DNA from: Comamonas sp. 26
GTDB lineage: Bacteria; Pseudomonadota; Gammaproteobacteria; Burkholderiales; Burkholderiaceae_C
Assembly (NCBI RefSeq): GCF_002754475.1
Contig: NZ_PEFL01000001.1
Coordinates: forward strand, 2,666,001 to 2,730,000
Direction of reading: 5' to 3'
Length of the DNA stretch: 64,000 nt
Positions within the stretch are counted from its first letter, which is position 1. The number at the start of each line of letters is the position of its first letter. The notes under the pieces are model-generated. The model was not told the origin of the DNA, did no database searches, and saw nothing but the letters and a program-made list of their open reading frames with translations. Below, in pieces: positions 35,574-48,246 of the stretch. A program made the translations under genes and the position numbers.

Positions 35574-35636
35574 TTTAGCACAGCTACACACAATAATAAA
35601 GCCAAGCTAAATAAAATGACTATTAGCATTGCTAAC
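35574..35636. promoter_or_regulatory. Repressor operators in the lysogeny switch
   Basis: Three sites share a TTTAGCAnnGCTAAA-like dyad: TTTAGCACAGCTACA (35,574-35,588), ATTTAGCTTGGCTTT on the minus strand (35,612-35,598), and ATTAGCATTGCTAAC (35,622-35,636), whose core TTAGCATTGCTAA is a perfect 13-bp palindrome. The third overlaps the start of the repressor gene, fitting autoregulation. Confidence 0.75.
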
Positions 35637-36329
35637 ATGAAAGAATGGACTCAAGAGGAAGAAGCAGCGAATCTCAAACGCTTGCTCTCCAGCGTGGACA
35701 ACAAGGCGCAATTCGCCAAGGACAACAATGTTCCTGGCGGAGCTTCGATGCTGTCCCAACACCAAAGCGGCCACCGCCCTATTGGCCTAGAAGCCGGCCT
35801 GATCTATGCCAAAGCCCTCGGAGTCTCATTGGCAGAAATAAGCCCACGTTTAGCCAAGATGGTTGAGGATGTTCCAAAGCTCACTGGTACACCCAATTTG
35901 ATTCAGTCAAACGTCGAGCCCGCCCTAGAGCTAAAGAAATCAAGAAGAGTGCCAATTACAGGAAGCGTGCGCGGTGGGGATGATGGCTATCTGGTTCAGG
36001 ACGTGGTGCCTGATGGGTGGGTCGAATACTGGACTGGCGACCCAAATGCCTATGCCCTGCGCATCAGGGGCGACTCCATGCACCCACGCTACCGCGCCGG
36101 TGAGTTCGTGGTCGTCACACCCAGCATTGAGGCCCAGCCAGGCCGCGATGTGGTGGTGAAGCTTCATGACGGCAAATGCCTACTCAAGGAACTCAACTGG
36201 ATTCGCGGAGATGAAATCCAGCTGCTGAGCATCAACAACGGCTACGCCCCTACGACCATTCCCAAAGAGGAAGTGGAGTGCATCTGCCGAGTGGCCGGGT
36301 CAGTTGGGCCGGATTCAATGGTGTTTTAA
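35616..36329 (+). CDS. Phage CI-like repressor (HTH plus S24 peptidase)
   Basis: 237 residues. An N-terminal XRE-like DNA-binding domain (about 8-75, NKAQFAKDNNVPGGASMLSQ) is followed by an S24/LexA-type domain with catalytic Ser in RIRGDSMHPRYRAGE and Lys in VVVKLHDGKCLLKEL. The cleavage site is probably the Gly pair near RVPITGSVRGGDD. It should keep the prophage silent and be inactivated through RecA. The ATG at 35,616 puts operator three inside codons 3-7; the ATG at 35,637 (MKEWTQEEE) is an alternative start that would leave it outside. Confidence 0.88.
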   Translation: MTISIANMKEWTQEEEAANLKRLLSSVDNKAQFAKDNNVPGGASMLSQHQSGHRPIGLEAGLIYAKALGVSLAEISPRLAKMVEDVPKLTGTPNLIQSNVEPALELKKSRRVPITGSVRGGDDGYLVQDVVPDGWVEYWTGDPNAYALRIRGDSMHPRYRAGEFVVVTPSIEAQPGRDVVVKLHDGKCLLKELNWIRGDEIQLLSINNGYAPTTIPKEEVECICRVAGSVGPDSMVF

Positions 36330-36395
36330 CAATCGACGGAAATCTCGGTGCAGAAAATGCTGCGACGACCTTCAGCCCAGGCCTGCGCCGAAGTC

Positions 36396-36420
36396 AAGCC
36401 CGCTCCGTGCGGGCTTTTTT
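36396..36420 (+). terminator. Terminator of the repressor gene
   Basis: AAGCCCGC/GCGGGCTT-type stem followed by six T, 67 bases past the repressor stop codon. It also faces the convergent lipoprotein gene. Confidence 0.82.
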
Positions 36421-36428
36421 AGGCCTGC

Positions 36429-36686
36429 CTACTTCTGCTCTGAGTGATCTCTGCGGAAAAGCGTCCATTCATCCATCTCTGTGCCATTGGGTAGCACACA
36501 GATGCCCTGCTCACCCTGGGGCGTTTTCTCGATCCGCAGCTTCCCGCCAATCTTGACGCAGTAGACAGAGGCAGGGTTAGCCATGCCCAGCACAGGTGAG
36601 TCAGTTGGTTTTACCGAATCTTGAGCGCATCCAGCAAGAGCCATAGTTGCGAGCGCCGCGCCAGCGCTTCCAAGTAGTTTGTTCAT
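36429..36686 (-). CDS. DUF333 lipoprotein
   Basis: 85 residues starting MNKLLGSAGAALATMALAGC, with an LAGC lipobox. The mature part is a DUF333 domain (MANPASVYCVKIGGKLRIEK, then GICVLPNGTEMDEW), a small secreted domain often labelled hemolysin-like without proof. The ATG at 36,686 is preferred over an upstream start that lacks a signal peptide. Confidence 0.82.
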   Translation of the reverse strand: MNKLLGSAGAALATMALAGCAQDSVKPTDSPVLGMANPASVYCVKIGGKLRIEKTPQGEQGICVLPNGTEMDEWTLFRRDHSEQK

Positions 36687-36702
36687 GGGCTGACTGTACC
36701 CG

Positions 36703-36795
36703 CTATGCCCAGTCGTCCCTGATCTCATTGATCACCCAGGCCACAAGCACGGCCACGATCCACAGGCCAACCATTTGCATCATGAGGGTAGACAT
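36703..36795 (-). CDS. Very small membrane protein (30 residues)
   Basis: Begins MSTLMMQMVGLWIVAVLVAW and ends in a charged EIRDDWA tail: one membrane helix with a short cytoplasmic end. An AAGGAG lies 8 bases before the ATG. It sits just upstream of, and on the same strand as, the DUF333 lipoprotein. Confidence 0.6.
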   Translation of the reverse strand: MSTLMMQMVGLWIVAVLVAWVINEIRDDWA

Positions 36796-36888
36796 CGCCG
36801 CTCTCCTTGAAGTGCGTGATACCTGAATACTCCTCCTTCGGTCATCAGACCGCAATCTGAGACAGCTCGCCTAGTACGGGCTTTGCAT

Positions 36889-37011
36889 CTACAGATTCGG
36901 AGCATTGACCGGGTCACCGGGTAGCTCCGCTGGCGGCACATCGACCGGTGGGTCAATCGGGACAGGCTTGGGCTCCTGCTCTTTGCGCGGCTCTTTCGGT
37001 TGATAAGTCAT
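36889..37011 (-). CDS. Small Pro-rich protein (40 residues)
   Basis: Begins MTYQPKEPRKEQEPKPVPID and continues with alternating Pro, Val and acidic residues; predicted unstructured. A perfect AGGAGG lies 9 bases before the ATG, which supports translation. Function unknown. Confidence 0.55.
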   Translation of the reverse strand: MTYQPKEPRKEQEPKPVPIDPPVDVPPAELPGDPVNAPNL

Positions 37012-37115
37012 GGCCAATGCCTCCTTGCCTTGCTTCTACTCCGACAAATTAAGTTGAGCAACCTTTGCCGCATCCCTCGGAAGCGCTATTGCAACCTCTT
37101 GCAGGTATGCATTTA

Positions 37116-37187
37116 GAAGCAATGCTAAAGATAAATTCATAAATTTATTTAGCAAGGCTGTTGACCAAATAATTTAGCAAAGCTACA
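37116..37187. promoter_or_regulatory. Second cluster of repressor operators
   Basis: GAAGCAATGCTAAAG (37,116-37,130, inverted), TTTAGCAAGGCTGTT (37,148-37,162) and TTTAGCAAAGCTACA (37,173-37,187). The last differs by one base from the operator at 35,574-35,588. The cluster lies 1.5 kb from the lysogeny switch. Confidence 0.7.
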
Positions 37188-37189
37188 TT
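37161..37189 (+). promoter_or_regulatory. Promoter under the second operator cluster
   Basis: -35 TTGACC (37,161-37,166), 17-base spacer, -10 TACATT (37,184-37,189). An operator covers the spacer and most of the -10, so repressor binding should block it. It faces right, towards 37,200-38,050. Confidence 0.65.
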
Positions 37190-37640
37190 TCTTCCGTAGC
37201 AGCAAAAAACCGCTGCGACGGGTGCCAAGTGATCGAGCTAGCACCGGTTCATGCAGCCGCACGGCTGGGTAAACACAGGGCACCGCGGGCGGTAGCGGGA
37301 TACAAAAGGTCGTCGGTCGCTCTAGTCAGTACTGCTCTGCCCCCCGGATTGGGATCGGCAACAGGAACATCGAAAGGCCACGCGAAATCCATCCGCTGGG
37401 TTCTATACGGCGGTGAGGCATACAGGGAGGCCAAGAGCAAGAACGCCCTCTGCGCAAGCAGCGCCAGCCCCTGAGCGACATCAGGGGCACAAACCAGAGC
37501 CTTGCGCGCAGGGCTGCGGTTTGCAGCTCCGACAGTCACTGCAGACGTTTATTTCTGATACCGTCGTTTAAGGTCATAAATAAGAGTACCGTGGATTCAG
37601 GCAATCAATCTTGATCCGCCACCATAGACCGGAGGTCTAT
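37190..37640 (+). other. Transcribed region with no secure gene
   Basis: Downstream of the repressed promoter. A GTG-initiated frame (37,229-37,474, 81 codons, starting VIELAPVHAAARLGKHRAPR) is possible but has a poor ribosome site and unusual composition. A word near 37,494 recurs at 37,979. The segment could be an untranslated RNA, a lost gene or a leader. Confidence 0.35.
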
Positions 37641-38010
37641 TTGTCAGGTAACCCTATCCCTATTTCAACACCATCTTTTTGGGACACCTTGAAGCTGATG
37701 TTCTTTTTCAACGGTGGGCTCCCAGCTCCACAACAGCAAGGCCTACCTCTCGTTCCCCAAAAGCAGAACAGGGAAGAGCAGCAGCAGCGAAAGCAGTAAT
37801 AGCAGATCAGCGATCAACGACCCGACGAGTACGGTTTTCTTTTACCAGCCACCCACGAGGTGGTTTTTTTGCGCCCGGAGATTGTGAAATGTGAGCGAGT
37901 AGCCAGCATGCGGCATGCATGTGCTTCCCCCGCAGGGCTTTAGCGGGGCCATCCAGAGATCGCCCAGCTCTCAAACTAGAGCCTTTCGTGCAGGGCTATG
38001 GTTTGCGTTG
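37494..38010 (+). repeat. Pair of 31-base imperfect direct repeats
   Basis: AGAGCCTTGCGCGCAGGGCT (from 37,496) and AGAGCCTTTCGTGCAGGGCT (from 37,980), each followed by a GGTTTGC word. They lie downstream of the repressed promoter, one on each side of a small ORF. Confidence 0.5.
37641..37799 (+). CDS. Small protein with Gln-rich end (52 residues)
   Basis: A TTG start preceded by GGAGGT at 5 bases. The protein begins MSGNPIPISTPSFWDTLKLM, has a short hydrophobic LMFFF patch and ends in a Gln/Lys/Arg-rich tail. No family recognised. It lies in the repressor-controlled transcript, so it may be an early phage protein. Confidence 0.5.
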   Translation: MSGNPIPISTPSFWDTLKLMFFFNGGLPAPQQQGLPLVPQKQNREEQQQRKQ

Positions 38011-38051
38011 CTAGCACCAGATCACCTACACAGTTTGGTGCTTGAAATGCA

Positions 38052-38414
38052 TCAACTTTGCAGTTGAGTCGCAGGACTCAGATCAGGTGGCAAATTCATC
38101 AAAATTTCCATCGCGCTTGCCCCCTCCATCCTCTGAATGACAATCCCTCCATTTGCTTGGATGTAGGTACAGACAAGTGGCTCATCTTCTCCATTCAGAA
38201 GGAAGTTACCAGCGGGAGAGGTATCTAAATCAGGCTCCGGCACCAATTCAGTCTGAGAAATCTCCTCCAAATAACCTTGAGGCATTCCCACTTCAGAGCA
38301 CACCTCTATCCACTTGCTCTTCACTAATTCGTGAGCCGACTTCCAATCGGCGCAAGGTTTAGAGCGTTCCAAGTGCTTGATCAAAGCGCTGATGCGAAGC
38401 TCGAAAGTCTCCAT
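38052..38414 (-). CDS. Hypothetical protein
   Basis: 120 residues beginning METFELRISALIKHLERSKP. Soluble, acidic and mixed alpha/beta by eye; the second half has VCTYIQANGGIVIQRMEG. Not recognised. A GGGGGAG lies at 3-4 bases from the ATG. It is AT-richer than the core genes, as expected of prophage cargo. Confidence 0.65.
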   Translation of the reverse strand: METFELRISALIKHLERSKPCADWKSAHELVKSKWIEVCSEVGMPQGYLEEISQTELVPEPDLDTSPAGNFLLNGEDEPLVCTYIQANGGIVIQRMEGASAMEILMNLPPDLSPATQLQS

Positions 38415-38725
38415 AGCTCCCCCTTATCGTTATGTCTATGAGAAAAATTCGCGTTATTTACTTTATTTGTAAATTTTCCTGGATCTAGCGCCTTGAGTGT
38501 GATGCAAGAAGCCAGAAACACAGCATTTCCAAGAGTGACCTCAGGTAATCAAATGCAACCACTTCTTCCTATACCTATAGGTAGGTAGTACATATTCCTC
38601 TCATTTGCTTACAACAAAATTAGGTATTGTCCGTGTTCGACTACATAGCTTCTCAGTCATGACGCCCACCCTAAGAGACAGGCAGGTCATCTCGGCTTGT
38701 CGTTTCAACTGAAGGAGCTAACGCT
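38415..38725. other. Intergenic region upstream of the Q/N-rich gene
   Basis: AT-rich, no gene. It contains a perfect 12-bp palindrome TACCTATAGGTA (38,572-38,583) and possible but weak promoter elements near 38,610-38,640. The start of the Q/N-rich gene has GGAG at 38,714. Confidence 0.4.
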
Positions 38726-38899
38726 ATGTCTCAGCAACCCAATCAGCAAAACGCCAATCAACAGCAGCCCAGCCAGCAGCAGCAAAACCCCAACCAGAAT
38801 CAGCCAGGGCAGCAAACCAATCAACCTGGTCAGCAGCAACAGCAAAATCCAGCCCAGCAAAAACAGCCCGGGCAGCAGCAAAAACCTTCTCATCAGTAA
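38726..38899 (+). CDS. Q/N-rich low-complexity protein (57 residues)
   Basis: The frame begins MSQQPNQQNANQQQPSQQQQ and ends QKPSHQ. Of 57 residues 28 are Gln, 8 Asn and 8 Pro; there is no hydrophobic core, so it should be disordered. GGAG precedes the ATG at about 8 bases. Both other frames here are also open because of the repetitive CAG/CAA text, but only this one has a ribosome site and a coherent composition. It lies 74 bases upstream of the PRC-barrel gene on the same strand, so the two are probably co-expressed. Confidence 0.7.
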   Translation: MSQQPNQQNANQQQPSQQQQNPNQNQPGQQTNQPGQQQQQNPAQQKQPGQQQKPSHQ

Positions 38900-38973
38900 C
38901 GCTCCAAGTGCGAAGTGCGGCTTAAAGCCGTATTTGTTCTGATTTTTTGACTACGCAGACTTAAGGGGTAAAA

Positions 38974-39321
38974 ATGCACACCAATTCAACTGTCATCTCG
39001 TCCAATGATGTGGATGGGACCAATGTCTACAATCCGGCAGGCGAAAAACTTGGCTCCATTAACTCCTTGATGATTGACAAGATCACAGGCAAGGTGCGTT
39101 ATGCAGTCATGGAGTTCGGCGGCTTTCTGGGAATGGGCACAGACCTTTATCCCCTGCCGTGGGATAGCCTCAAGTACAACCCGAATCAAGGCGGATATGT
39201 GGTCTCAGTGACCAAAGAGCAATTAGAAAGTGCTCCCCGCTACGAAGGTGGAACAGTGCCCGATTACAACGATGATTACGGGCGCCGCGTCTACGGTCAC
39301 TACGGGTACCCATACCTGTAA
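38974..39321 (+). CDS. PRC-barrel domain protein
   Basis: 115 residues. The PRC-barrel core is clear: VYNPAGEKLGSINSLMIDKI, then GKVRYAVMEFGGFLGMGTDL, YPLPWDSLKYN and the strand after it. The tail is Tyr/Gly/Asp-rich (DYNDDYGRRVYGHYGYPYL). PRC barrels bind proteins or RNA; stand-alone forms are often stress induced. Not a usual phage gene, so likely cargo. Confidence 0.85.
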   Translation: MHTNSTVISSNDVDGTNVYNPAGEKLGSINSLMIDKITGKVRYAVMEFGGFLGMGTDLYPLPWDSLKYNPNQGGYVVSVTKEQLESAPRYEGGTVPDYNDDYGRRVYGHYGYPYL

Positions 39322-39784
39322 CCTGACACTCCAGAGCTCAAGACACAGCGTTGAACCCAGGTAGGAGCTTTGATCGGCATATTCCGAACCTATTCCTACT
39401 TTCAGCCCGCCACTGCGCGGGCTTTTTTGCGCTTTGCGTTCAGACGCACAGGCATCCGGCGTGACCACTCTAGCGAGGTCGTTTGATCTTTGGAATTAGC
39501 CAGAGCAAGCGGCGATTCATGGACTTCGGCGCGGCCTCCGCGTCGATGGCGAAAGTGGTCACACCAGATGGCGCAGCACCTTTTATTAACCTAAGTGCGC
39601 ATTTTTTCTGCTTGACCCTCATCGGGCAGAAGAAAGCTGAGTCATCGCCTTTTTCAGCCGGGCCTGGGAAATCTCCTCCCTCCCTCTCTATTACTTCCCC
39701 AGGTATGCCCCGAAAGGGCACCGGCTCCTTATTCAAGCCCGCAGCAACCGCTAGCGGGCTTTTTCTTTGCCCATCGGAGATTCC
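39322..39784. other. Stretch without a secure gene
   Basis: Holds a hairpin AGCCCGC/GCGGGCT plus six T (39,404-39,429) and a second hairpin at 39,736-39,760 that forms the leader of the next gene. Between them (39,480-39,720) both strands are open in long frames, but neither has a ribosome site or a recognisable protein. It may be a decayed early phage gene. Confidence 0.4.
39736..39784 (+). promoter_or_regulatory. Stem-loop/RBS leader, copy A
   Basis: AGCCCGC/GCGGGCT stem, then TTTTTCTTT, then CGGAGATTCC and ATG (39,785). Same layout as copies at 40,948, 41,994, 43,898, 44,646, 44,902 and 45,681. Confidence 0.7.
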
Positions 39785-39859
39785 ATGCAGCTCACCACCG
39801 AGCACCAGCCCATTGACGACGACCTCGTGCAGCGCCTGCGCGAAAAAGGAGGCCTGTGA
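39785..39859 (+). CDS. Mini-protein (24 residues) after a stem-loop leader
   Basis: MQLTTEHQPIDDDLVQRLRE followed by KGGL and a stop. The start is well placed behind CGGAGA. It reads like the N-terminus of a longer early phage protein, so it is either a truncated gene or a coupling peptide for the next ORF, which starts one base after its stop. Confidence 0.4.
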   Translation: MQLTTEHQPIDDDLVQRLREKGGL

Positions 39860-39860
39860 A

Positions 39861-40013
39861 GTGGCCACACATCCCCACCCTGCCCATCGCGTCGGCCCTG
39901 CAACAAAGCTGCTGACCGCCCTGCTGTGGGCGCTTGTCGCAGTCGGCATCTTCGGCCTCACCGGCGCGGCAGCGCTGCTGATGGCCTCGACTCCAAGCGC
40001 TTGGCCCCTCTGA
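39861..40013 (+). CDS. Small membrane protein (50 residues)
   Basis: A GTG start 8 bases after a perfect AGGAGG. It begins MATHPHPAHRVGPATKLLTA and continues into a hydrophobic helix rich in Ala, Leu and Val, ending in SAWPL. One membrane segment, function unknown. Confidence 0.5.
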   Translation: MATHPHPAHRVGPATKLLTALLWALVAVGIFGLTGAAALLMASTPSAWPL

Positions 40014-40021
40014 ACATCAAT

Positions 40022-40068
40022 CAACTTTTATAGCTACTCGCGCTTTATTCATAAGCGTTAGAGGCAAA
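40022..40068 (+). repeat. Interspersed repeat copy inside the element
   Basis: TTTTATAGCTACTCGCGCTT, then TATTCATAAGCGTTAGAGGC. Nearly the same as the chromosomal copy at 18,098. It ends 4 bases before the start of the next gene, so it forms that gene's leader. Confidence 0.7.
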
Positions 40069-40071
40069 TTT

Positions 40072-40401
40072 ATGCACTTTCAAGACGCTTATGAATTGGT
40101 GAAGGTCTTCGGGCCGCGAGCCACCGCTCGCACCCTGAGCAGAGCAACCGGAATTTCTGCTCGCACCTTGAACCGCTTGGCGACAGAGAGCGGCATCACC
40201 CTGCGCACATCCATAGAACCCATCACAGGAATTGAGCACCTGCCAGGCCTGCCTAACTTCACCGAAAGCCGTGCATGGCGCGGCGGGACTGTCCACCGCA
40301 TTGATTTATCCAAGGCCGGAGACAGCCCCGGCTATCGCTCCCTGCTCATTCACCAATCTGGCGTGCAAGGCCATGAAGATGAGGACGACAACGATGACTA
40401 A
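40072..40401 (+). CDS. Hypothetical phage protein, possible helix-turn-helix
   Basis: 109 residues. ARTLSRATGISARTLNRLAT looks like a helix-turn-helix; the C-terminus is acidic (HEDEDDNDD). Its stop overlaps the next start by 8 bases (ATGACTAA). No Shine-Dalgarno is visible because the upstream sequence is the repeat, so the true start may differ. Confidence 0.6.
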   Translation: MHFQDAYELVKVFGPRATARTLSRATGISARTLNRLATESGITLRTSIEPITGIEHLPGLPNFTESRAWRGGTVHRIDLSKAGDSPGYRSLLIHQSGVQGHEDEDDNDD

Positions 40402-40615
40402 AGCCCTTTACGCAATCGCTCTGGCGATCCTCTCTGTGACGCTACTCCTACTTTGGGTCACTCCCCCAGCGCAGGCCGATGAGGAACCCGCTGAGCCACC
40501 TGCGCCCGCCGGCGCAATCCGTATGGCCGCCCGCGATGCCTTTGCCTGCCCTGGCATGCACGCCGAGTGGCTGGATAAAAAGACCGTGCAGTGCTTGAAA
40601 CAAAAGCCAGAGTGA
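40394..40615 (+). CDS. Small exported protein
   Basis: 73 residues. The N-terminus MTKALYAIALAILSVTLLLL then AQADE looks like a signal peptide. The mature part is Pro/Glu-rich followed by two Cys (FACPGMHAEW, TVQCLKQK) that could form a disulfide. It overlaps the upstream gene by 8 bases. The upstream in-frame extension is not real. Confidence 0.65.
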   Translation: MTKALYAIALAILSVTLLLLWVTPPAQADEEPAEPPAPAGAIRMAARDAFACPGMHAEWLDKKTVQCLKQKPE

Positions 40616-40638
40616 TAACTGCACAGCCTCGGCTCCCA

Positions 40639-40845
40639 CTACATGTTGCCGCGAACAAAGTATGGACCGTCTCCACCATTCCAGGTCTGCATATTGCGCC
40701 CATACATCATGCCGCCGCCCATGCTCATAGAGCCCATTGACTGACTGGAACCTTGTGATGACATCGACCCCGAATCACGACTCGGCATCATCGAGCAGCC
40801 AGTCAACGTACTGACTACTACCGCAATCAAAAGTAGCGATTTCAT
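40639..40845 (-). CDS. Met/Ser/Gly-rich lipoprotein
   Basis: 68 residues beginning MKSLLLIAVVVSTLTGCSMM, with an LTGC lipobox. The mature part is low complexity (SQGSSQSMGSMSMGGGMMYG). AAGGAG precedes the ATG. Met-rich exported proteins sometimes bind copper, but no metal site can be claimed here. Confidence 0.72.
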   Translation of the reverse strand: MKSLLLIAVVVSTLTGCSMMPSRDSGSMSSQGSSQSMGSMSMGGGMMYGRNMQTWNGGDGPYFVRGNM

Positions 40846-40947
40846 AAGTGGCTCCTTCAAAACGTGGAGATCTCAGGCTATTCCTGCTGAACACCAGCCG
40901 CTGTAGGTTGATGTGCCATATGCCAATAGCTATTCAAGCCATGCCCT

Positions 40948-40985
40948 CCCGCTTTCAAGCGGGCTTTGCTTTTTCTGGAGCTCCA
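40948..40985 (+). promoter_or_regulatory. Stem-loop/RBS leader of rdgC
   Basis: CCCGC/GCGGG stem, U-rich CTTTGCTTTTTCT, then GGAGCTCCA and ATG. Confidence 0.65.
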
Positions 40986-41972
40986 ATGTTCAAGAACATG
41001 ATTGTTTATCGCATTGCCGAAAGCTGGCAGGGCGATCTGCAGGTGCTGGAAGATGCGCTGCAAAAGACAGTGTTTGCCGAGTGCGGCGCGACGCAGGAAC
41101 GCTCGGTCGGCTGGATGCCGCCGCGCGGTGAGCAGCATGGCCCGCTGGTCGAATCGGTGGCCGGCCAATGGGTAATGCGCTTCATGACCGAGGCCAAGAT
41201 GCTGCCTGCCAGCGTGCTCAACCGCAGGGTTAACGAAAAGGCTGATGCCATCGAGAAGGCCGAGGGGCGCAAGCCCGGCAAGAAAGAGAAAAAAGACCTG
41301 AAGGACGAGGCGAGGCTGGATTTACTGCCCATGGCCTTTACCAAGCAAGGTGCCATGTGGGTATGGATTGACCCGCAGGCGCGTACGCTGGTGCTCGATA
41401 CCAGTGCGCAAGGCCGTGCCGATGAAGTAGTAACGCTGCTGGTGGAAGGTCTGCCCGGCTTCGCGCTGGCCCTGCTGGATACCCAGACCAGCCCGCAGGC
41501 TGCCATGGCGCACTGGCTGATGACCCAGGAGCCGCCTGCCAGCTTCACTGCTGACCGCGAGACTGAACTGAAGGCTGTCGACGAATCCAAGGCTGTGGTG
41601 CGCTACGCACGCCACCCGCTGGATATTGACGAGGTGCGCCAGCACATCGAGCACGGCAAGATGCCCACCAAGCTGGCCATGACCTGGGATGACCGCGTGA
41701 GCTTTGTGCTGACCGAAGGCCTGCAGATCAAAAAGATTGCACTGCTGGATGCAGTCATGGATGGCAACAGCGAGGACGATGGCGGCTTTGATACCGATGT
41801 GGCCATTGCCACCGGCGAGCTGTCGCGCCTGATTCCTGATCTGATCGAAGACCTGGGCGGCGAAGGTCGCACCGGCCTGAGCACCCTGCCCGCATCACTG
41901 GCTGCCAGCGCCAGCACTACCGGCCCAAAGGCCGCGCCGACTGACACAACTCCAGGCGCAAACCCGTTCTAA
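40986..41972 (+). CDS. rdgC: Recombination-associated protein RdgC
   Basis: A ring-shaped dimer that coats double-stranded DNA and limits RecA. The 328 residues show the family start MFKNMIVYRIAESWQ and the blocks SVGWMPPRG, LPASVLNRRVNEKA, AMWVWIDPQARTLVLDTSAQ and LAMTWDDRVSFVLTEGLQIK. It lies inside the element behind a stem-loop/RBS leader, so it is phage-borne; a host copy may exist elsewhere. The Ala/Thr-rich C-terminus is variable. Confidence 0.93.
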   Translation: MFKNMIVYRIAESWQGDLQVLEDALQKTVFAECGATQERSVGWMPPRGEQHGPLVESVAGQWVMRFMTEAKMLPASVLNRRVNEKADAIEKAEGRKPGKKEKKDLKDEARLDLLPMAFTKQGAMWVWIDPQARTLVLDTSAQGRADEVVTLLVEGLPGFALALLDTQTSPQAAMAHWLMTQEPPASFTADRETELKAVDESKAVVRYARHPLDIDEVRQHIEHGKMPTKLAMTWDDRVSFVLTEGLQIKKIALLDAVMDGNSEDDGGFDTDVAIATGELSRLIPDLIEDLGGEGRTGLSTLPASLAASASTTGPKAAPTDTTPGANPF

Positions 41973-41993
41973 CCACTGTCTCTTCAATCCACC

Positions 41994-42031
41994 AGCCCGC
42001 CATGCCGCGGGCTTTTTCTTTGGAGGCTCCT
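41994..42031 (+). promoter_or_regulatory. Stem-loop/RBS leader
   Basis: AGCCCGC/GCGGGCT stem, TTTTTCTTT, GGAGGCTCCT and ATG (42,032). It doubles as terminator of rdgC. Confidence 0.7.
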
Positions 42032-42226
42032 ATGAGTCTGACTTTCGTGAACCACAACGGCGACCCTATCTCTCAGACCCGAATGGCAGCCATGCGAGCC
42101 CAAGGAATGGAGCTTGAGCGTCAAAAACGCCTTGCCTCCAAAGGAGACACCGTCTCGGTGCACAAGGGTTGGCGCGTTTCGGGCATCCCACCCGGAAAGC
42201 TGGAAGAGGCTAAGGCGGCCCATTAA
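42032..42226 (+). CDS. Small phage early protein (64 residues)
   Basis: Begins MSLTFVNHNGDPISQTRMAA. Basic and helical; ends in GKLEEAKAAH. Not recognised. GGAGG lies 6-7 bases before the ATG directly behind a stem-loop leader. Confidence 0.65.
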   Translation: MSLTFVNHNGDPISQTRMAAMRAQGMELERQKRLASKGDTVSVHKGWRVSGIPPGKLEEAKAAH

Positions 42227-42238
42227 CAGCTGCGCCAA

Positions 42239-42430
42239 ATGGCACAAAAGGCAGGCGGAAAACCGCCGGAGCCTTTTGATGAATCCGCGTGGCGTCGTAC
42301 AGCCAAGCGCACCGCTTTGCGCAGCAAGCCGTACCCCCTTCAAGAGGCTGCCCTACTCTGCAAGGAGTTGGCTATCAAGACAGGCTGGCTTGATGTGCAG
42401 CTGCTCGAAATCAAGAAAATAGCTGTATGA
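42239..42430 (+). CDS. Small phage early protein (63 residues)
   Basis: Begins MAQKAGGKPPEPFDESAWRR; basic N-terminal half, helical C-terminal half with one Cys. Starts 12 bases after the previous stop; no clear Shine-Dalgarno, so it probably relies on coupling. Confidence 0.5.
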   Translation: MAQKAGGKPPEPFDESAWRRTAKRTALRSKPYPLQEAALLCKELAIKTGWLDVQLLEIKKIAV

Positions 42431-42641
42431 CATCCAACAAGCGACAGGGGGAGAAAATCCAAAAGCACATCTCCCCGAAGATGCGAATCTGGACTACAAA
42501 GATCAAAGATCATCCCGTCGTGACATCTTGTCACGTAACACAGCAAGATTCACTGATAGAGACTGTTAGTTGAACATCTTGCAGTTGAGTGACAAGTATT
42601 ACTGTTCAGTTTCGGTTTTTAATCGAGGAGGTCTCAGCCAG

Positions 42642-43841
42642 ATGTTCGCGAACAGTGACTACTTGATTCTCATGCCGTCGCTGGCAATGCTAGCTCTGGC
42701 GTCAGTGTTGATCCTTGCTTGGTTGATTCAACGTTCTCAGAGTTTTTTGCTATGGCAATCATGCGCATATTCACTGACTGCACTTTCACTCGGAGCACAA
42801 AGCATATTCCCCCTGGAAGTCCTCAATCACTACGCTCTAGTCATTGGCTGTTTCTACTTGCTTGGAGCATGGTGTCTTGCAAACAGCTGGGCTGAAAGAT
42901 GGAAGGTATCAGCCCAACGGAATGCAGCATTAATTATTGCCATCGTCACGCTAGCTAACCTACATTACTTCAGCAGTATCGAACAAAACGTTTGGGCACG
43001 AGTAAGCTCTTTTAGCATTGGCTCTGGCCTAGTCTTGCTGCTCCCGATCTTAAAGGTCAGAGCAAAGAAAACCTCATTTGATTGGCTTGATAGGTCGCTG
43101 CTATGGCTAAGCATCATCTTCACGGCCTATACCTTCACTCGCCCCGTTTTGATATGGCTACTCGGATACACGGATCTTAGGTCGCTTCCAAAGTCGCCGT
43201 ATTGGCTCTTGACGCTAATGAGCGTTCTGAGCTTCTCAATCCTTTTTACAGTGGTGATGATCTTCATTGCAATCAATGAAATCATCTGCAAGCTGCGCGA
43301 AGAACGCGATCATGATGCATTGACAAAAATTCTGAACCGCCGAGCTTTTCAAGAACATGCCCAGAAGCGTCTTGCTGACAGACGGCTTTATCCAATTTCA
43401 GTTCTGAGCTGTGATATGGATCACTTCAAACGCATTAACGACACTTGGGGCCACGAGCGTGGCGATCAGGTGCTACAACTTGCTTCGGCGACTCTTCAAA
43501 AGAATGTCCGAGAGCACGATTTGGTCGCACGGTTTGGCGGTGAAGAATTTGTGCTTTTATTGATCGACACAACTCTGCGAGATGCAGAACTAATTGCCCT
43601 GCGAATCCAGCGTGACCTCGGCTCAAATAATACAGTTCTTCCATCCGGTCCAAAACTGACTATGAGCTTTGGGATTTCACCGGTCACCAACCCTCTCCAG
43701 CTGGAACAAGCCATAAAAGAAGCCGATCAACTCCTTTACCAAGCGAAAAATGCTGGCCGTGATCGAGTGCATGTATCTGGAGTGACCTATCCAGACATCT
43801 TCATTGACAGCCCCCGCCAGCCAGATGCAGTTGCAGCCTGA
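42642..43841 (+). CDS. Membrane diguanylate cyclase (GGDEF)
   Basis: Makes cyclic di-GMP. The 399 residues comprise about six membrane helices (residues 1-215, a MASE-like sensor without a family I can name) and a GGDEF domain. Visible motifs are DALTKILNRRAF, CDMDHFKRINDTWGHERGD, the active site GGEEF and, five residues before it, an RxxD inhibitory site (REHD). The domain therefore looks active and product-inhibited. The ATG at 42,642 follows an AGGAGG somewhat far upstream; a TTG at 42,570 is possible. AT-rich codon use differs from core genes: phage-borne cargo. Confidence 0.88.
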   Translation: MFANSDYLILMPSLAMLALASVLILAWLIQRSQSFLLWQSCAYSLTALSLGAQSIFPLEVLNHYALVIGCFYLLGAWCLANSWAERWKVSAQRNAALIIAIVTLANLHYFSSIEQNVWARVSSFSIGSGLVLLLPILKVRAKKTSFDWLDRSLLWLSIIFTAYTFTRPVLIWLLGYTDLRSLPKSPYWLLTLMSVLSFSILFTVVMIFIAINEIICKLREERDHDALTKILNRRAFQEHAQKRLADRRLYPISVLSCDMDHFKRINDTWGHERGDQVLQLASATLQKNVREHDLVARFGGEEFVLLLIDTTLRDAELIALRIQRDLGSNNTVLPSGPKLTMSFGISPVTNPLQLEQAIKEADQLLYQAKNAGRDRVHVSGVTYPDIFIDSPRQPDAVAA

Positions 43842-43897
43842 TATGCCTCAGCGCTATATGAATCCCTCGTAGCGAGGTTTTCACCTTACCCCTTACG

Positions 43898-43934
43898 GCC
43901 CGCCACTGAGCGGGCTTTTGCTTTCTGGAGCCCT
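43898..43934 (+). promoter_or_regulatory. Stem-loop/RBS leader
   Basis: GCCCGC-CACTGA-GCGGGC stem and loop, TTTTGCTTTCT, GGAGCCCT and ATG (43,935). Near-identical to the copy at 44,646. Confidence 0.7.
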
Positions 43935-44021
43935 ATGCTTACCAAGATAGACATGAATGCCAGCTGCGCAAATTTACACAGCGGCAATGCCCTCTTTACA
44001 GTTTCGGCGTATCGTGAATGA
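43935..44021 (+). CDS. Truncated early phage mini-protein (28 residues)
   Basis: Begins MLTKIDMNASCANLHSGNAL and stops at AYRE. The start is perfect, but the product looks like the front of a longer protein cut by the cargo gene that follows. The same leader reappears at 44,646 with no start codon behind it. Confidence 0.45.
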   Translation: MLTKIDMNASCANLHSGNALFTVSAYRE

Positions 44022-44082
44022 CATCGATGGAGCGTTCTTCGCTGCGTTGGAGAGCGCGATTCGGTGGACGAGGAGCGCGAAC

Positions 44083-44613
44083 ATGTCTGTATCTTCTTCA
44101 CGCTGGCTGCTCGCTGGCGCACTTCTCCTGGCCGGCTCGGGTCCGGCCCTTGCGCAACATGGCGGCCATGGCGGTCATGAAGGTGGCTTCTCCCATGGTG
44201 GTGCGGCCTACGGTGGTCATTTTGGCGGCGGAGCAGCCCTTGGCAGGGGAGACCATCGTATGGATTCTGGCCGATGGGCATACCGGCCGGGTAACGACGT
44301 TCACGGCTTCAGCCGACCAGACTTTGCACGCTGGAGCGGTGGCCGCTGGAGCCAGACTTGCTGGGGCGGGCGCTGCGGTTGGTGGTGGGCTACCGGAGGC
44401 TTAGGGTATTTCTATGCTGCGCCGGTATATCCATATCCGCTGGTGGTGTCCCCCATTACGTACGCGGTGCCAATCTACGACTCGGGCGTAACCGGCCCAG
44501 TGCCTCAACCGAACTTTTCGTATTACTGCGACAACCCACAGGGCTATTACCCCGAAGCTCAGCAATGCAATACGCCATGGCAAGAGTTCAGAACGCCAGC
44601 GGATAGTCAGTGA
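44083..44613 (+). CDS. Exported Gly/His-rich protein
   Basis: 176 residues. Signal peptide MSVSSSRWLLAGALLLAGSG with cleavage after ALA. A Gly/His-rich stretch (HGGHGGHEGG), a Trp/Gly-rich middle with paired Cys, and the C-terminal pattern YYCDNPQGYYPEAQQC followed by W. That pattern is common in exported betaproteobacterial proteins of unknown function. AGGAG precedes the ATG. It is flanked by two nearly identical stem-loop leaders and looks like a bacterial gene inserted into the phage region. Confidence 0.8.
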   Translation: MSVSSSRWLLAGALLLAGSGPALAQHGGHGGHEGGFSHGGAAYGGHFGGGAALGRGDHRMDSGRWAYRPGNDVHGFSRPDFARWSGGRWSQTCWGGRCGWWWATGGLGYFYAAPVYPYPLVVSPITYAVPIYDSGVTGPVPQPNFSYYCDNPQGYYPEAQQCNTPWQEFRTPADSQ

Positions 44614-44645
44614 ACCTGTGCGGCTTCCGTTTAATCTTCCATCAT

Positions 44646-44679
44646 GCCCGCCACTGAGCGGGCTTTTTGCTTTCTGGAG
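44646..44679 (+). promoter_or_regulatory. Orphan stem-loop/RBS leader
   Basis: GCCCGC-CACTGA-GCGGGC, TTTTTGCTTTCT, GGAG as at 43,898, but no start codon follows. The gene it served appears lost. Confidence 0.6.
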
Positions 44680-44705
44680 CACAGCGCCCCTCTCAAAAGG
44701 CCGAC

Positions 44706-44789
44706 TCAGAGCATAGATAGCCTATACCAAGCGTACAAGGCAGCAAGCGCTATCAGTTGTAAACCAAAGAAATCTGCGATGTAAGGCAT
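44706..44789 (-). CDS. Very small membrane protein (27 residues)
   Basis: Begins MPYIADFFGLQLIALAALYA and ends YRLSML: one membrane helix. AAGGAG lies 8 bases before the ATG, which supports expression. Opposite in direction to the early genes. Confidence 0.5.
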   Translation of the reverse strand: MPYIADFFGLQLIALAALYAWYRLSML

Positions 44790-44901
44790 TTGAATCTCCT
44801 TTACGCGTGGCTGGTTCCGCAGAGTCCGTTTTATTGCACCGGTGTAAAGCGACGATTCCTGCTTCGTAAACCTTTTGCAGACGCCACACAACCAACACAC
44901 C

Positions 44902-44940
44902 AGCCCGCCGCCGCAGGCTTTTCTCATTCTGGGAGCCAAT
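44902..44940 (+). promoter_or_regulatory. Stem-loop/RBS leader, weaker stem
   Basis: AGCC...GGCT stem with GC-rich loop, TTTTCTCATTCT, GGGAGCCAAT and ATG (44,941). Confidence 0.5.
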
Positions 44941-45501
44941 ATGCAAAACAAAGCAAGCCAGCCACTTATTGAAACGTTGCCAATGACACTTGGAGTGCCC
45001 TACACGGACGATCCGAGCGCGCCGCTGAATATCGAGATTCCACTGCAAGTTGCGCTACCAGATGGTCAGACGCTATATGCAGCTGTTGCCCTAGGCAGCC
45101 TGCCTTTTCATGGCCAGCAGCAAATCGTTGAGCGCATCGTCGCTGCTTGGAACGCGTTTACTGGTGTGGGTACCTCCAACATTGCGCCACCCCGCCAATG
45201 CCTGCACCAGATCCAGGAGCCGCCCACAAAGACAGAGGCGCTTGCGCACTACAGTCAACAGGCAATTCTCGCCATGGGTGAAGCAGCGCACGCAGCAGTG
45301 GCAGTGGCAGTGGCAGTGCCAACTATTGATGCCTTGCGTGAAGCAGAAGCAGCGCTGGAAGTCGCAATTGCACGAATCCTGAAGGCAAGTCCAGGCCACG
45401 CCATCAGTGTGACCAGTGAAGCCAAAGCGCTTGTTGCCGTACGTGCCGCGCTTGCCACCACCCCGGCAGCTCAGCAGAAACAAGGGGGCGAGCATGTCTA
45501 A
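44941..45501 (+). CDS. Phage early protein of unknown function
   Basis: 186 residues. The N-terminal part (IPLQVALPDGQTLYAAVALG) looks like a beta domain; the rest is helical and Ala-rich, with a short Ala-Val run (AVAVAVAV) from a GCAGTG microsatellite at 45,294-45,318. No family recognised. The ATG at 44,941 directly follows the stem-loop leader; the upstream extension is rejected. Its stop overlaps the next start by 8 bases. Confidence 0.65.
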   Translation: MQNKASQPLIETLPMTLGVPYTDDPSAPLNIEIPLQVALPDGQTLYAAVALGSLPFHGQQQIVERIVAAWNAFTGVGTSNIAPPRQCLHQIQEPPTKTEALAHYSQQAILAMGEAAHAAVAVAVAVPTIDALREAEAALEVAIARILKASPGHAISVTSEAKALVAVRAALATTPAAQQKQGGEHV

Positions 45502-45652
45502 GCGAATGGCAGGAAAGCGCTGGTTTGAAGCATTGGGGCGTAGCCATGCCAAGTACGCACACCTTTCACGCATCACCCAACGCGATTGGCCTCAATGGGC
45601 ACGCATCGCATACGCACGCGGTGTTCTATTTCAAACATGGCGCCGCGCGTGA
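45494..45652 (+). CDS. Small basic phage protein (52 residues)
   Basis: Begins MSKRMAGKRWFEALGRSHAK; strongly basic with several Trp, likely nucleic-acid binding. Overlaps the upstream gene and follows GGGGGCGAGC at its end. Family unknown. Confidence 0.55.
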   Translation: MSKRMAGKRWFEALGRSHAKYAHLSRITQRDWPQWARIAYARGVLFQTWRRA

Positions 45653-45680
45653 AGACAATCAAAAACAGCACAACCCCGAG

Positions 45681-45719
45681 CCCCGCCACTGAGCGGGGTT
45701 CTGCTTTTTGGGAGATCTC
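45681..45719 (+). promoter_or_regulatory. Stem-loop/RBS leader with compensatory change
   Basis: CCCCGC-CACTGA-GCGGGG: the same loop as at 43,898 and 44,646, but the first pair G-C is swapped to C-G, keeping the stem. Followed by TTCTGCTTTTT, GGGAGATCTC and ATG (45,720). Confidence 0.7.
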
Positions 45720-45923
45720 ATGGCGACCAGCACCAGCACCGTGGACCTGCCAGAAGACAAGGCTTACCTCAATCACCACTTCAACTGCCCCTATTGCATA
45801 TCAGCGGGCGCAACGCCTGGAAAGCAGGAGCGGTGCCCGGAGGGGCTGCAACTTTGGCAGGCCTACCGCCTCGCTACGACTCCGCAAGAAAACAAACAAC
45901 CTCGCAAGAGGCTTTACAAATGA
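45720..45923 (+). CDS. Small phage protein with a possible zinc site (67 residues)
   Basis: Begins MATSTSTVDLPEDKAYLNHH. HHFNCPYCISAG followed by ERCPEGLQLW gives three Cys and neighbouring His that could bind zinc. Similar short His/Cys proteins occur near integrases in integrative elements; I cannot name a family. Confidence 0.6.
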   Translation: MATSTSTVDLPEDKAYLNHHFNCPYCISAGATPGKQERCPEGLQLWQAYRLATTPQENKQPRKRLYK

Positions 45924-45933
45924 TTGGATGGAT

Positions 45934-46152
45934 ATGAGTCTCTATCTCTCCCCTCAGGAGGTTGACGATCTGTGCACGCCGCTAACCCAGCGCGCAGCAC
46001 AGAAGCGATTCATTGAGAAAGTGCTTGGTATCCCGGTGGCCGGCCGCCGCCCAGACGGCGTGCCTATCGTTGGAAGAGCAGTGGCAGAGGAGCGCCTGAA
46101 GCAAAAGCAAGCCACGGAAGCTCAGTCACGTGGATTTAACTGGAGAAAGTAA
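45934..46152 (+). CDS. DUF4224 protein next to the integrase
   Basis: 72 residues (MSLYLSPQEVDDLCTPLTQR, then AAQKRFIEKVLGIP and the DGVPIVGR strand). DUF4224 proteins are winged-helix-like and sit directly before phage integrases, so a role as excisionase or directionality factor is suspected. Its stop overlaps the integrase start by one base (TAATG). A start six bases upstream (45,928) is also possible. Confidence 0.82.
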   Translation: MSLYLSPQEVDDLCTPLTQRAAQKRFIEKVLGIPVAGRRPDGVPIVGRAVAEERLKQKQATEAQSRGFNWRK

Positions 46153-47189
46153 TGGGACGCAGACGCGAACGAGCATCCGGCTTTGGCCTCCTGCCGAGAA
46201 TGGAGGCTCGCCCTCGCAAAGATGGGAAGGTAACGTACCGCTATCACCCAATGGGTGGCAAACCGATCAACCTCGGCACTGATCGTGACGAGGCTGTGCG
46301 CCAAGTCCTCGGAGTCAATGCACAAGCATCGAGCCAAGGTACTGTGCGCGCACTGTGGGACCTTTATCAGCAGACCCCGAAATGGGCGGAACTCAAAGAG
46401 CGCACAAAGAGCGACTACCAAGCCTATAGCGTCAAGCTGCTGGAGGTGATGGGCGACGTGCCCGCCGGGGTCATTCGCCCAACCGACATTGCGCGTTATC
46501 TGCGAGTCGAGCGCGCCGAGGCTCCCGTGCGTGGCAATCGGGAGATCGCTCTGCTCTCAAATCTCATGAATGTCGCCATTGAGCGTGGAGAAATTGATAG
46601 CAACCCATGCAAGCAGGTTAAGAAAAATTCAGAGAAAGCACGAACTGAAGCACCAGAGCCCGAAGAGCTGCGCTCCTACCTTGATTGGTTGTTTCGTGGT
46701 GGACCCGCTAGGCGTATGCTGGCCCTTATGGCTGAGTTCGCCGCTCTCGCTGGTTCGCGCCGCGCTGAATTTCTGGAACTACAAACCCCGCAGATTGATT
46801 TGCAAGGCGACGTGATTCGTCTGATGCGCGCGAAACAACACGGCGGCAGCAAAAAGGCTGAGAGCATCACCATGGGACCTGCGATGCGCAACTTGGCTGT
46901 GCGCCTGCTTGGCTTGCCTCGCCCAGAAACCTCACTGCATGTGTTCATCAATCAGCAAGGCAATCCGCTGACTGAATCGGGCTTCACTTCTGGTTGGCAG
47001 CGGGCTATGGTTGATGCGCTGGAGGAAGGTGTAATTCAGCGCCGATTCACATTCCATGATCTTCGGGCGTACTACACGACACAGCACAAAGAGCAGTACG
47101 GAGCGCTACCCGAATTGCACGCCAGTACTGCAACAACTGCACGGGTCTACGACCGCTCAAAGATCGCAAAGCGAAACTCTTTGGGGTGA
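46152..47189 (+). CDS. int: Tyrosine recombinase (phage integrase)
   Basis: 345 residues. N-terminal arm-binding region with basic start MGRRRERASGFGLLPRMEAR, a core-binding SAM-like domain (about 60-165) and a catalytic domain with Arg in LAGSRRAEFLEL, the His-x-x-Arg in FTFHDLRAYYTT and the nucleophile Tyr in ARVYDRS. The segment between HDLRA and the Tyr is shorter than usual and lacks a clear GH second box, so activity is not certain. It catalyses integration at the tRNA-Lys 3' end 70 bases downstream. Confidence 0.9.
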   Translation: MGRRRERASGFGLLPRMEARPRKDGKVTYRYHPMGGKPINLGTDRDEAVRQVLGVNAQASSQGTVRALWDLYQQTPKWAELKERTKSDYQAYSVKLLEVMGDVPAGVIRPTDIARYLRVERAEAPVRGNREIALLSNLMNVAIERGEIDSNPCKQVKKNSEKARTEAPEPEELRSYLDWLFRGGPARRMLALMAEFAALAGSRRAEFLELQTPQIDLQGDVIRLMRAKQHGGSKKAESITMGPAMRNLAVRLLGLPRPETSLHVFINQQGNPLTESGFTSGWQRAMVDALEEGVIQRRFTFHDLRAYYTTQHKEQYGALPELHASTATTARVYDRSKIAKRNSLG

Positions 47190-47191
47190 TG

Positions 47192-47205
47192 AATATTCCC
47201 ACGGC
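47192..47205. promoter_or_regulatory. Candidate integrase arm-type site, right end
   Basis: AATATTCCCACGGC, shared with the left end (23,596-23,606 inverted and 23,649-23,660). It also forms a small hairpin ATTCCCACGGCGGGAAT. Confidence 0.45.
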
Positions 47206-47222
47206 GGGAATAAAACAGAAAA

Positions 47223-47251
47223 GCCGCTACAACTTTAATAGCTGTAGCGGC
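47223..47251. terminator. Element-borne hairpin after the tRNA and the integrase
   Basis: GCCGCTACA/TGTAGCGGC stem with loop ACTTTAATAGC. It lies 11 bases beyond the tRNA 3' end and 33 bases after the integrase stop, so it can end both converging transcripts. It mimics the native hairpin at 23,473-23,501. Confidence 0.6.
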
Positions 47252-47261
47252 TTGCTGATCT

Positions 47262-47337
47262 TGGTGGGTCCTACGAGATTCGAACTCGTGACCAACGGAT
47301 TAAAAGTCCGCTGCTCTACCGGCTGAGCTAAAGACCC
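47262..47337 (-). tRNA. tRNA-Lys (anticodon TTT)
   Basis: 76 bases with encoded CCA. Acceptor GGGTCTT pairs with AGGACCC; the D arm is TAGCTCAGCCGGTAGAGCA; the anticodon loop CTTTTAA gives TTT; the T arm is CACGAGTTCGAATCTCGT-like. It is intact because the element restores its 3' half. It is the integration target: the last 49 bases are the right att copy. Confidence 0.95.
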
Positions 47338-47424
47338 CTCCGCACCTCAAAAGCAATGTTTGCTTATTCAGTGGAATGACGTTATTGTAATCTACTTTTC
47401 CTGTCTCTCAGGAAAGTGACCCAA

Positions 47425-48246
47425 TTAATTGGATTTGCGTGCTAATTGGTCCAGAACCCAGCCTGCTGCGCACTGGCCGAACGTCGCGGTCACAGCCACT
47501 ACCGAGCCATAGCCGTGGCAGTTCAAGCTACCGTCACCCTCAATGGCGCAAGAGGCATCAGGCGGCGCAACCGCTTCGCGGCTGAACACACAGGTCACCC
47601 CCATACGCTTGCCATCTTTAGGCGCGCCATGCTGCTTGCGCAAGCGATAACGCAGTTGTGAGAGGAGCGGATCATGCGTGGTGGCACTGAGGTCAGCAAT
47701 ATCCACCAAATGCGCAAGTCGCTTGCCGCCCGCCGCACCCACAGCAATAAAGCATTGCTTGATCTTGCGGGCATGGGCTGCCATCTCAGTCTTTGCTTTG
47801 ACTTGATCACAGGCATCAATCACGGCATCCGCATCTGCGGGCAGCAACTGCAGCCAGTTCTCGGGCTCCACAAAATCATCAATGCAAACCACCTGACAAG
47901 CAGGATTGATCAAAGCAATGCGATCGCGCATGGCCTCGATCTTGGCCTGCCCCACAGTATTGGTCAGCGCATGAATCTGGCGGTTGATATTGGATTCAGC
48001 CACATGATCCATATCAATCAGAGTCAAACGACCCACACCGCTGCGCGCAAGCGCTTCAGCCGTCCACGAACCTACGCCACCAATACCGACCACTACCACG
48101 TGGGCTGCACGAATGTGGGCTGCACCCTTGACGCCGTACAAACGCTCTAGCCCGCCAAAGCGGCGCTGCTGATCTACGTCGTCCGTTAAAAAAACAGCGC
48201 CGGACTGAGGCGCTGTTTCCGCTTGAGACTGCGAATGATCGGCCAT
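47425..48246 (-). CDS. tcdA: tRNA threonylcarbamoyladenosine dehydratase TcdA
   Basis: An E1-like enzyme that cyclises t6A to ct6A at position 37 of ANN-decoding tRNAs. 273 residues with the nucleotide-binding GIGGVGSWTAEALARSG, the TLIDMDHVAESNINRQ segment and the late SREAVAPPDASCA...GSLNCHGYGSVV part. The ATG at 48,246 overlaps the cpoB stop by one base; the GTG one codon upstream is an alternative. Confidence 0.93.
   Translation of the reverse strand: MADHSQSQAETAPQSGAVFLTDDVDQQRRFGGLERLYGVKGAAHIRAAHVVVVGIGGVGSWTAEALARSGVGRLTLIDMDHVAESNINRQIHALTNTVGQAKIEAMRDRIALINPACQVVCIDDFVEPENWLQLLPADADAVIDACDQVKAKTEMAAHARKIKQCFIAVGAAGGKRLAHLVDIADLSATTHDPLLSQLRYRLRKQHGAPKDGKRMGVTCVFSREAVAPPDASCAIEGDGSLNCHGYGSVVAVTATFGQCAAGWVLDQLARKSN

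Follow-up and report, generated by a model that had tools for sequence, protein, structure and literature searches.

Terminator-like hairpins fused to ribosome sites at mosaic gene borders in the left operon of a Comamonas prophage

Why should a short hairpin, a T-rich tract and a ribosome-binding site recur together ahead of one small phage gene after another? The question is raised by a stretch of 64,000 nucleotides (nt) from Comamonas sp. 26 (contig NZ_PEFL01000001.1, positions 2,666,001 to 2,730,000; hereafter, the window). Judging by its gene content, this includes the left operon of a prophage, running from a CI-type repressor to an integrase adjoining tRNA-Lys (Table 1). The original prediction described repeated stem-loop leaders before early phage genes and read each as a terminator fused to a ribosome site. 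These leaders (hereafter, units) are real, and they do sit in the repressor-to-integrase, i.e., left and early, operon. In our reading, their main meaning is evolutionary: they are probably joints for gene exchange in an operon resembling lambda pL, each providing a putative terminator for the gene before it and a ribosome site for the gene after it. The earlier interpretation was supported in part; it was right about structure and terminator form, while the mosaic junctions and the order of unit types had gone unnoticed.

Homology was compared across 29 related sequences, comprising 25 of 48 rdgC loci, the window operon and three further sequences from the same genome; the other 23 rdgC loci were more distant or incomplete and were left out, including two that have the hairpin (L214 and L215). 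The set contained 171 units and, behind them, 151 open reading frames (ORFs) of at least 20 amino acids (aa), belonging to 42 families. One sequence, L085, is part of the contig of L209; it was excluded from the main recount, which left our assessment unchanged, and counted in the figures for spacing, promoter score and flank identity, in the clustering of homology ends around units and in the neighbours tallied for the family behind 45678. An end of homology was assigned to a site when a blastn match (at least 100 nt and at least 75% identity) ended within 12 nt of it, after removal of colinear continuations within 300 nt. Control gene starts came from the same spans, were free of units and had at least 25 nt of intergenic space. 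Homology ended at 154 of 171 units, compared with 51 of 137 unit-free gene starts; random intervals, in 200 draws, included an end in 44.8 of 171 cases on average and 60 at most. Among 24 less redundant sequences, the values were 124 of 138 units and 38 of 107 gene starts (random mean 35.2, maximum 48). A single homologous stretch split at a diverged leader could have created false junctions, but the result stands with 424 colinear ends removed. Starts of homology clustered at the stem base, and stops at the start codon. A wider viral scan, covering 117 of at least 120 loci and omitting three members of the related group (L072, L075 and L085), placed breaks at 17 of 78 units, compared with 5 of 170 gene starts and, for random intervals, 2.8 (maximum 7).

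Near-identical units were found between unrelated genes. Within the 29 sequences, 292 pairs drawn from 75 units were at least 90% identical although their upstream and downstream families both differed, representing 61 family pairs. Identity of the flanks, calculated for 316 pairs with L085 included, was 0.28–0.38 in the stretch 70–31 nt ahead of the loop centre; once 10 nt into the gene, it was 0.23–0.37. The unit with the loop CACTGA had an identical 34-nt sequence at 11 of 21 distinct sites (hand count); the genes behind it encode a C5-methyltransferase (PF00145; L085/L209), an N6/N4-methyltransferase (PF01555; L159/L207), a small RCGSCGA protein and other ORFs. In the window, the 28-aa ORF behind 43898 starts ATGCTTACC, as does the C5-methyltransferase gene that follows this unit at other loci. 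The gene family behind 45678 occurred nine times with nine upstream neighbours, all different. When 45678 was compared with position 7370 of L020, in another prophage of the same chromosome, 244 nt upstream were 90.6% identical and the unit was common to both, while the genes behind it differed. Units are, in this respect, short conserved sequences at mosaic joints with unrelated flanks, as boundary sequences are.

The types of unit followed a fixed order along the operon: a GCCACC stem, a long AGCAACCGCTC-like loop, the rdgC leader, a CAnnnn loop, a CACTGA-like loop, a CGCC/AGCC loop with TTTTCTCATTCTGGGAG, and a CCCCGC stem. Within sequences, 346 of 357 pairs of units kept to the majority order (mean 0.611 and maximum 0.683 after shuffling). 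A stricter test was confined to comparisons between two sequences in which both following families differ; all 103 comparisons, from 22 sequences, agreed (shuffled mean 0.475, maximum 0.696), as did 90 of 90 in the less redundant set. Only 3 of 591 pairs of units within a sequence were at least 90% identical. Since linker types differ between the slots of one phage and match at the same slot elsewhere, exchange through short homology would preserve gene order and avoid internal deletion.

Hairpins exist at all eight places where they had been predicted. Of the seven said to share one layout, six reach a start codon. None is in reach at 44646, which keeps its GGAG and looks like a relic leader, and at 44902 the stem is broken by one C/A mismatch and folds at -7.3 kcal/mol, compared with -9.1 to -17.4 for the other seven. 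The eighth place, 39404, is a hairpin without a start, as described. The distance from stem end to start codon, previously given as 19–26 nt, was 18–23 nt (39735, 23; 40948, 22; 41994, 18; 43898, 19; 45678, 18; and, by hand count, 44902, 21); across 175 units of the 30-sequence set, which includes L085, it was 14–32 nt. At least five T were present in the 8 nt past the stem in 163 of these 175. The loop CACTGA is indeed common to 43898, 44646 and 45678, and the stem swap (CCCCGC/GCGGGG) belongs to 45678. A GC-rich stem running directly into a T-rich tract is the form of an intrinsic terminator, the mismatched stem of 44902 being the exception, and the view of each unit as a terminator fused to a ribosome site held as to form (stem, T-tract and GGAG). 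A terminator scan recovered six of the eight (39404, 40948, 41994, 43897, 44646 and 45678), missing 39735 because its loop exceeds the limit of the scan and 44902 because of its mismatch. Between 39400 and 46152, a unit detector (score at least 21) identified five units on the forward strand and none on the reverse, while 200 dinucleotide shuffles of the forward strand gave a mean of 0.01 and a maximum of one. The remaining 53.7 kb of the window contained no units on the forward strand and two on the reverse. The layout is not confined to phages, since a host gene (RecR-like by eye; 18796-18747 of the window, reverse strand) starts 27 nt past a strong hairpin and T-tract.

Selection on the RNA structure, as originally proposed, was evident from stem letters that vary while pairing stays. 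The rdgC leaders of relatives kept hairpin, T-tract and GGAG, with stems of GCCCGC/GCGGGC, GCCACC/GGTGGC or ACCCGC/GCGGGT. A covariance model built from 23 such leaders produced 145 matches (E at most 0.01) from 31 sources, bare hairpins among them; this search had been set beforehand as a refuting test, and it found further copies before genes. In the alignment of the 145 matches (119 distinct rows), which is fitted to the model and hence biased towards it, 94.6% of cells paired, compared with 89.1% in column shuffles, and changes on both sides affected 30 cells, compared with 3.9 in column shuffles and up to 14 when partners were slid. Within the genome itself, where 150 of 3410 candidates were scored, the best 19 matches lay in or adjoining four unit-bearing clusters; the twentieth (C1:1547885) was outside them, and weaker matches were scattered genome-wide. 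A search of 36000-48000 against Rfam listed seven matches, of which only the tRNA passed its gathering score; no match at that level fell at a unit.

Table 1. Features of the prophage left operon and its surroundings (coordinates of the window)
Feature	Position	Strand	Match	Remarks
CI-like repressor, S24 peptidase domain	35616..36329	+	phrog_4, E 2.4e-28; PF00717	Head side of left operon
Slot 0	37847..37950	+		Hairpin GCCACC..GGTGG, T-tract, GGAGAT, then conserved block with inverted repeats at 37906 and 37928
Plain hairpin and T-tract	39404..39428	+		No ribosome site
Slot 1 unit	39735..39787	+		Hairpin 39735-39761, GGAG, ATG 39785; leads 24-aa ORF
Unit leading rdgC	40948..40988	+		Hairpin 40948-40963, ATG 40986
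rdgC	40986..41972	+	PF04381, E 5.9e-106; phrog_724	
Unit leading 64-aa ORF	41994..42034	+		ATG 42032
GGDEF diguanylate-cyclase-like protein, membrane	42570..43841	+	PF00990, E 2.5e-43	No unit before gene
CACTGA unit leading 28-aa ORF	43898..43937	+		
CACTGA unit	44646..44679	+		GGAG present, start codon absent
CGCC/AGCC-type unit leading 186-aa ORF	44902..44943	+		One stem mismatch; ATG 44941
CCCCGC-stem unit with CACTGA loop, leading 67-aa ORF	45678..45722	+		ATG 45720
Integrase	46152..47189	+	phrog_1, E 3.9e-39	Operon end
tRNA-Lys	47262-47337	-		

Within this operon, the two CACTGA units at 43898-44679 are nearly identical, lie in direct orientation and bracket a 0.7-kb stretch, as if a cassette had been inserted between linkers; the stretch includes a 176-aa glycine/histidine-rich ORF (44083-44613) with no Pfam match. 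An ORF similar by eye to the GGDEF protein occupies the same place in the left operon of L199 (11947-13197). The wider map of L199 comprises a repressor, an O-like replication gene on the opposite strand, an excisionase-like gene and an integrase, and resembles the pL side of lambda.

Leaders of rdgC were compared between viral contigs and named genomes. A hairpin was present in 26 of 46 viral leaders (L191 and L192 being excluded), with a T-rich tract in 24 of the 26 (hand count). In named genomes, relatives of rdgC were found in Comamonas, Delftia, Acidovorax and their relatives, and in one record titled Pantoea; among 44 leaders (L302, L304 and L309 being excluded), one had a unit (L264, Comamonas testosteroni) and 42 had none. 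Setting aside one prophage copy considered below, the remaining 41 loci without a unit before rdgC had at most one unit on the strand of that gene, and therefore most are probably the hosts' own gene. Given 26 of 46 viral leaders with a hairpin and 1 of 44 named-genome leaders with a unit, the leader tracks the phage setting and not the rdgC gene.

The distribution of the layout was assessed with a strict pattern, GCCCGC-N3-12-GCGGGCTTTT-N0-16-GGAG. This matched 16 times in the genome, among 40 such hairpins, while the reversed pattern did not match. Fifteen matches fell in four clusters with unit-led genes related to those of the window; the sixteenth (C1:1750728) was beside an AlpA-like ORF (by eye), and its prophage is putative only. 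Related unit-bearing prophage operons occupy at least four stretches of chromosome C1 (676-686, 2575-2606, 2705-2712 and 2822-2841 kb), and these are possible exchange partners. Across the family, the pattern was present in 94 of 299 genomes, and the reversed pattern, which controls for composition only, gave 5 matches in 4 genomes (hand count). Viral contigs had at least 120 stretches with the pattern; these contained 179 detector units, many of them before tail and lysis genes (by eye, from protein starts). Five contigs (L326, L328, L335, L336 and L339) had the CCCCGC/CACTGA unit before other genes, including methyltransferase-like and amidase-like starts (by eye). A collection of annotated phages returned four records of two phages, all matching the rdgC region only. 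The hairpin-ribosome-site layout is by itself ordinary, because it is present in many phages.

At the operon head, the conserved block of slot 0 (either repeat) was present in 20 of 30 scanned sequences by hand count. Its carriers include L195, L197, L199, L203, L206 and L1920, and exact copies of its third repeat occurred in 21 stretches of viral contigs. One of its hairpins shows a change from C-G to T-A between phages (by eye). As a coding leader the block was rejected, since the frame is not kept and stops occur in L197 and in one copy from L1920 (by eye). Nor is it a site repeated at the right operon; it is single-copy, and neither repeat pattern occurs on the opposite strand in any of the 30 sequences. 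The block is a candidate control site, perhaps an antitermination or attenuator element. In a PHROGs search, the helix-turn-helix gene that precedes slot 0 in L199 did not match an antiterminator.

In the mechanism that we favour, each unit joins a terminator-like hairpin behind one gene to the ribosome-binding site of the gene that follows. Crossover anywhere within the unit of about 40–50 nt would leave both neighbours with intact ends, and units therefore probably serve as joints at which accessory genes (methyltransferases, an exonuclease and small unknown proteins) have been exchanged between phages. Short homology within the unit would drive the exchange, presumably to some advantage. 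More tentatively, each slot might have its own linker, shared across phages like an address, such that an incoming gene replaces one occupant without disturbing the order of an ordered plug-in array; we regard this as possible, and somewhat doubtful. If the hairpins terminate, transcription beyond a series of them would need antitermination or leaky termination, and their serial arrangement in the left operon suggests the former by analogy.

The same arrangement could mean that units serve mainly to control expression. In that case, the hairpins would restrain leaky transcription of the prophage and be passed only by antiterminated polymerase after induction; each gene would bring its leader and terminator along when it moves, and breaks would be tolerated at gene borders, making joints incidental. 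Terminator-like form with a T-tract, serial placement, and rdgC leaders that keep their structure while the letters change are all consistent with this. However, expression control alone would leave three things unexplained: near-identical linkers between unrelated genes, an order of types independent of the following gene, and the excess of breaks over other intergenic gene starts. We therefore consider it rather unlikely as the main function. Alternatively, termination could be dispensable and the hairpin act in the mRNA leader, insulating the start site from upstream ribosomes or protecting a processed 5' end. Its position 14–32 nt ahead of the start codon would suit this, as would the rdgC leaders of L166 and L167, where the hairpin has no T-run past the stem; but a T-rich tract follows in the remaining 24 of the 26 rdgC leaders that have a hairpin (by eye), as it does in most units generally (163 of 175), which makes a leader function very unlikely.

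Comparison with the early-promoter stem-loops (PeSLs) of T4-like phages had been suggested originally, with relatedness left aside. As an analogy it is sound, both being stem-loops at sites of gene shuffling, but kinship is not indicated. The gap from stem to start is mostly T-tract and ribosome site, with little room for a promoter, and the best score upstream of stems, for sigma-70-like promoters only, was 6.81 (145 non-redundant sites) against 6.74 for 2000 random positions. Spacing and scores both argue against a promoter of this type inside the unit, and units that are stem-loop promoters of the T4 kind are scarcely credible. Finally, GC-rich terminators are common, and the frequency of the pattern in family genomes and viral stretches would allow for chance likeness with no shared history. 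Against this, the window has five units where shuffles predict 0.01, the identical 34-mer recurs at about half of the distinct CACTGA sites, and the order of types is fixed; chance is accordingly a highly improbable source of the units.

Several observations weigh against units as joints for exchange. In the 117 wider viral loci, 61 of 78 units had no homology break, and the layout there is single. The sequences compared are related and therefore the counts are not independent events, such that Fisher tests of the homology breaks exaggerate certainty; a simple script, moreover, was used to assign gene starts. Hold-out contigs gave 8 concordant and 0 discordant results in the order test, from only five loci, several with the same genes. 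The hairpin was absent from 20 of 46 viral rdgC leaders, all with 66–81% identity to the RdgC of the window except L165 (88%). Those of L166 and L167 retain hairpin and GGAG with no T-run directly past the stem, and therefore the hairpin may have some function other than termination. Among the 44 named-genome leaders, that of L306 has the hairpin but has lost its GGAG, and in L265, a copy lying in a unit-bearing prophage, no unit precedes rdgC. Lastly, no antiterminator, N-like gene or nut site was identified, no dedicated search for nut or boxA having been made.

Clean exchange of phage genes at gene borders is a long-standing question. In this operon, linkers are recognisable at most of the borders that bear units; they act as expression signals too, and their type marks position, so linker-directed exchange could be tested in one system. 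New accessory early genes could also be sought through the linker sequence ahead of them. The open-licence literature searched gave no account of linkers like these in such phages, but comparison may be made with four known systems. The lambda pL operon is subject to N antitermination. It shares with the present operon the course from repressor to integrase and the serial terminator-like hairpins; in the prophage, unlike lambda, the hairpins are fused to ribosome sites, and an N-like gene or nut site did not emerge, a nut site not having been specifically sought. In Cluster K mycobacteriophages, the repeats named SAS lie where translation of non-structural genes begins, and roughly half of them have an inverted repeat (ESAS) just upstream; SAS is a fixed 13-bp sequence and ESAS consists of 17-bp imperfect repeats, for which the available part of the account describes no T-tract (PMC3203893). 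The 13-bp GGGATAGGAGCCC at the start codon had no match in the window with up to two mismatches.

T4-like PeSLs were reportedly described by Arbiol in 2010 and Comeau in 2014. By one account, these cassettes recur between genes where shuffling is intense, and in each a stem-loop is joined to an early promoter (PMC4503421). The present units are likewise repeated stem-loop cassettes at shuffled gene borders. They differ in joining the stem-loop to a ribosome site and not a promoter, in being of position-specific types, and in being carried by lambda-like temperate phages with a repressor, excisionase-like gene, integrase and O-like gene. The boundary sequences of lambdoid phages, short and conserved, lie where modules join, and homologous recombination has been proposed to take place within them (PMC3029335). 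Units resemble these in length, conservation and position; unlike boundary sequences, as far as that account describes them, units occur at most unit-bearing borders and double as expression signals.

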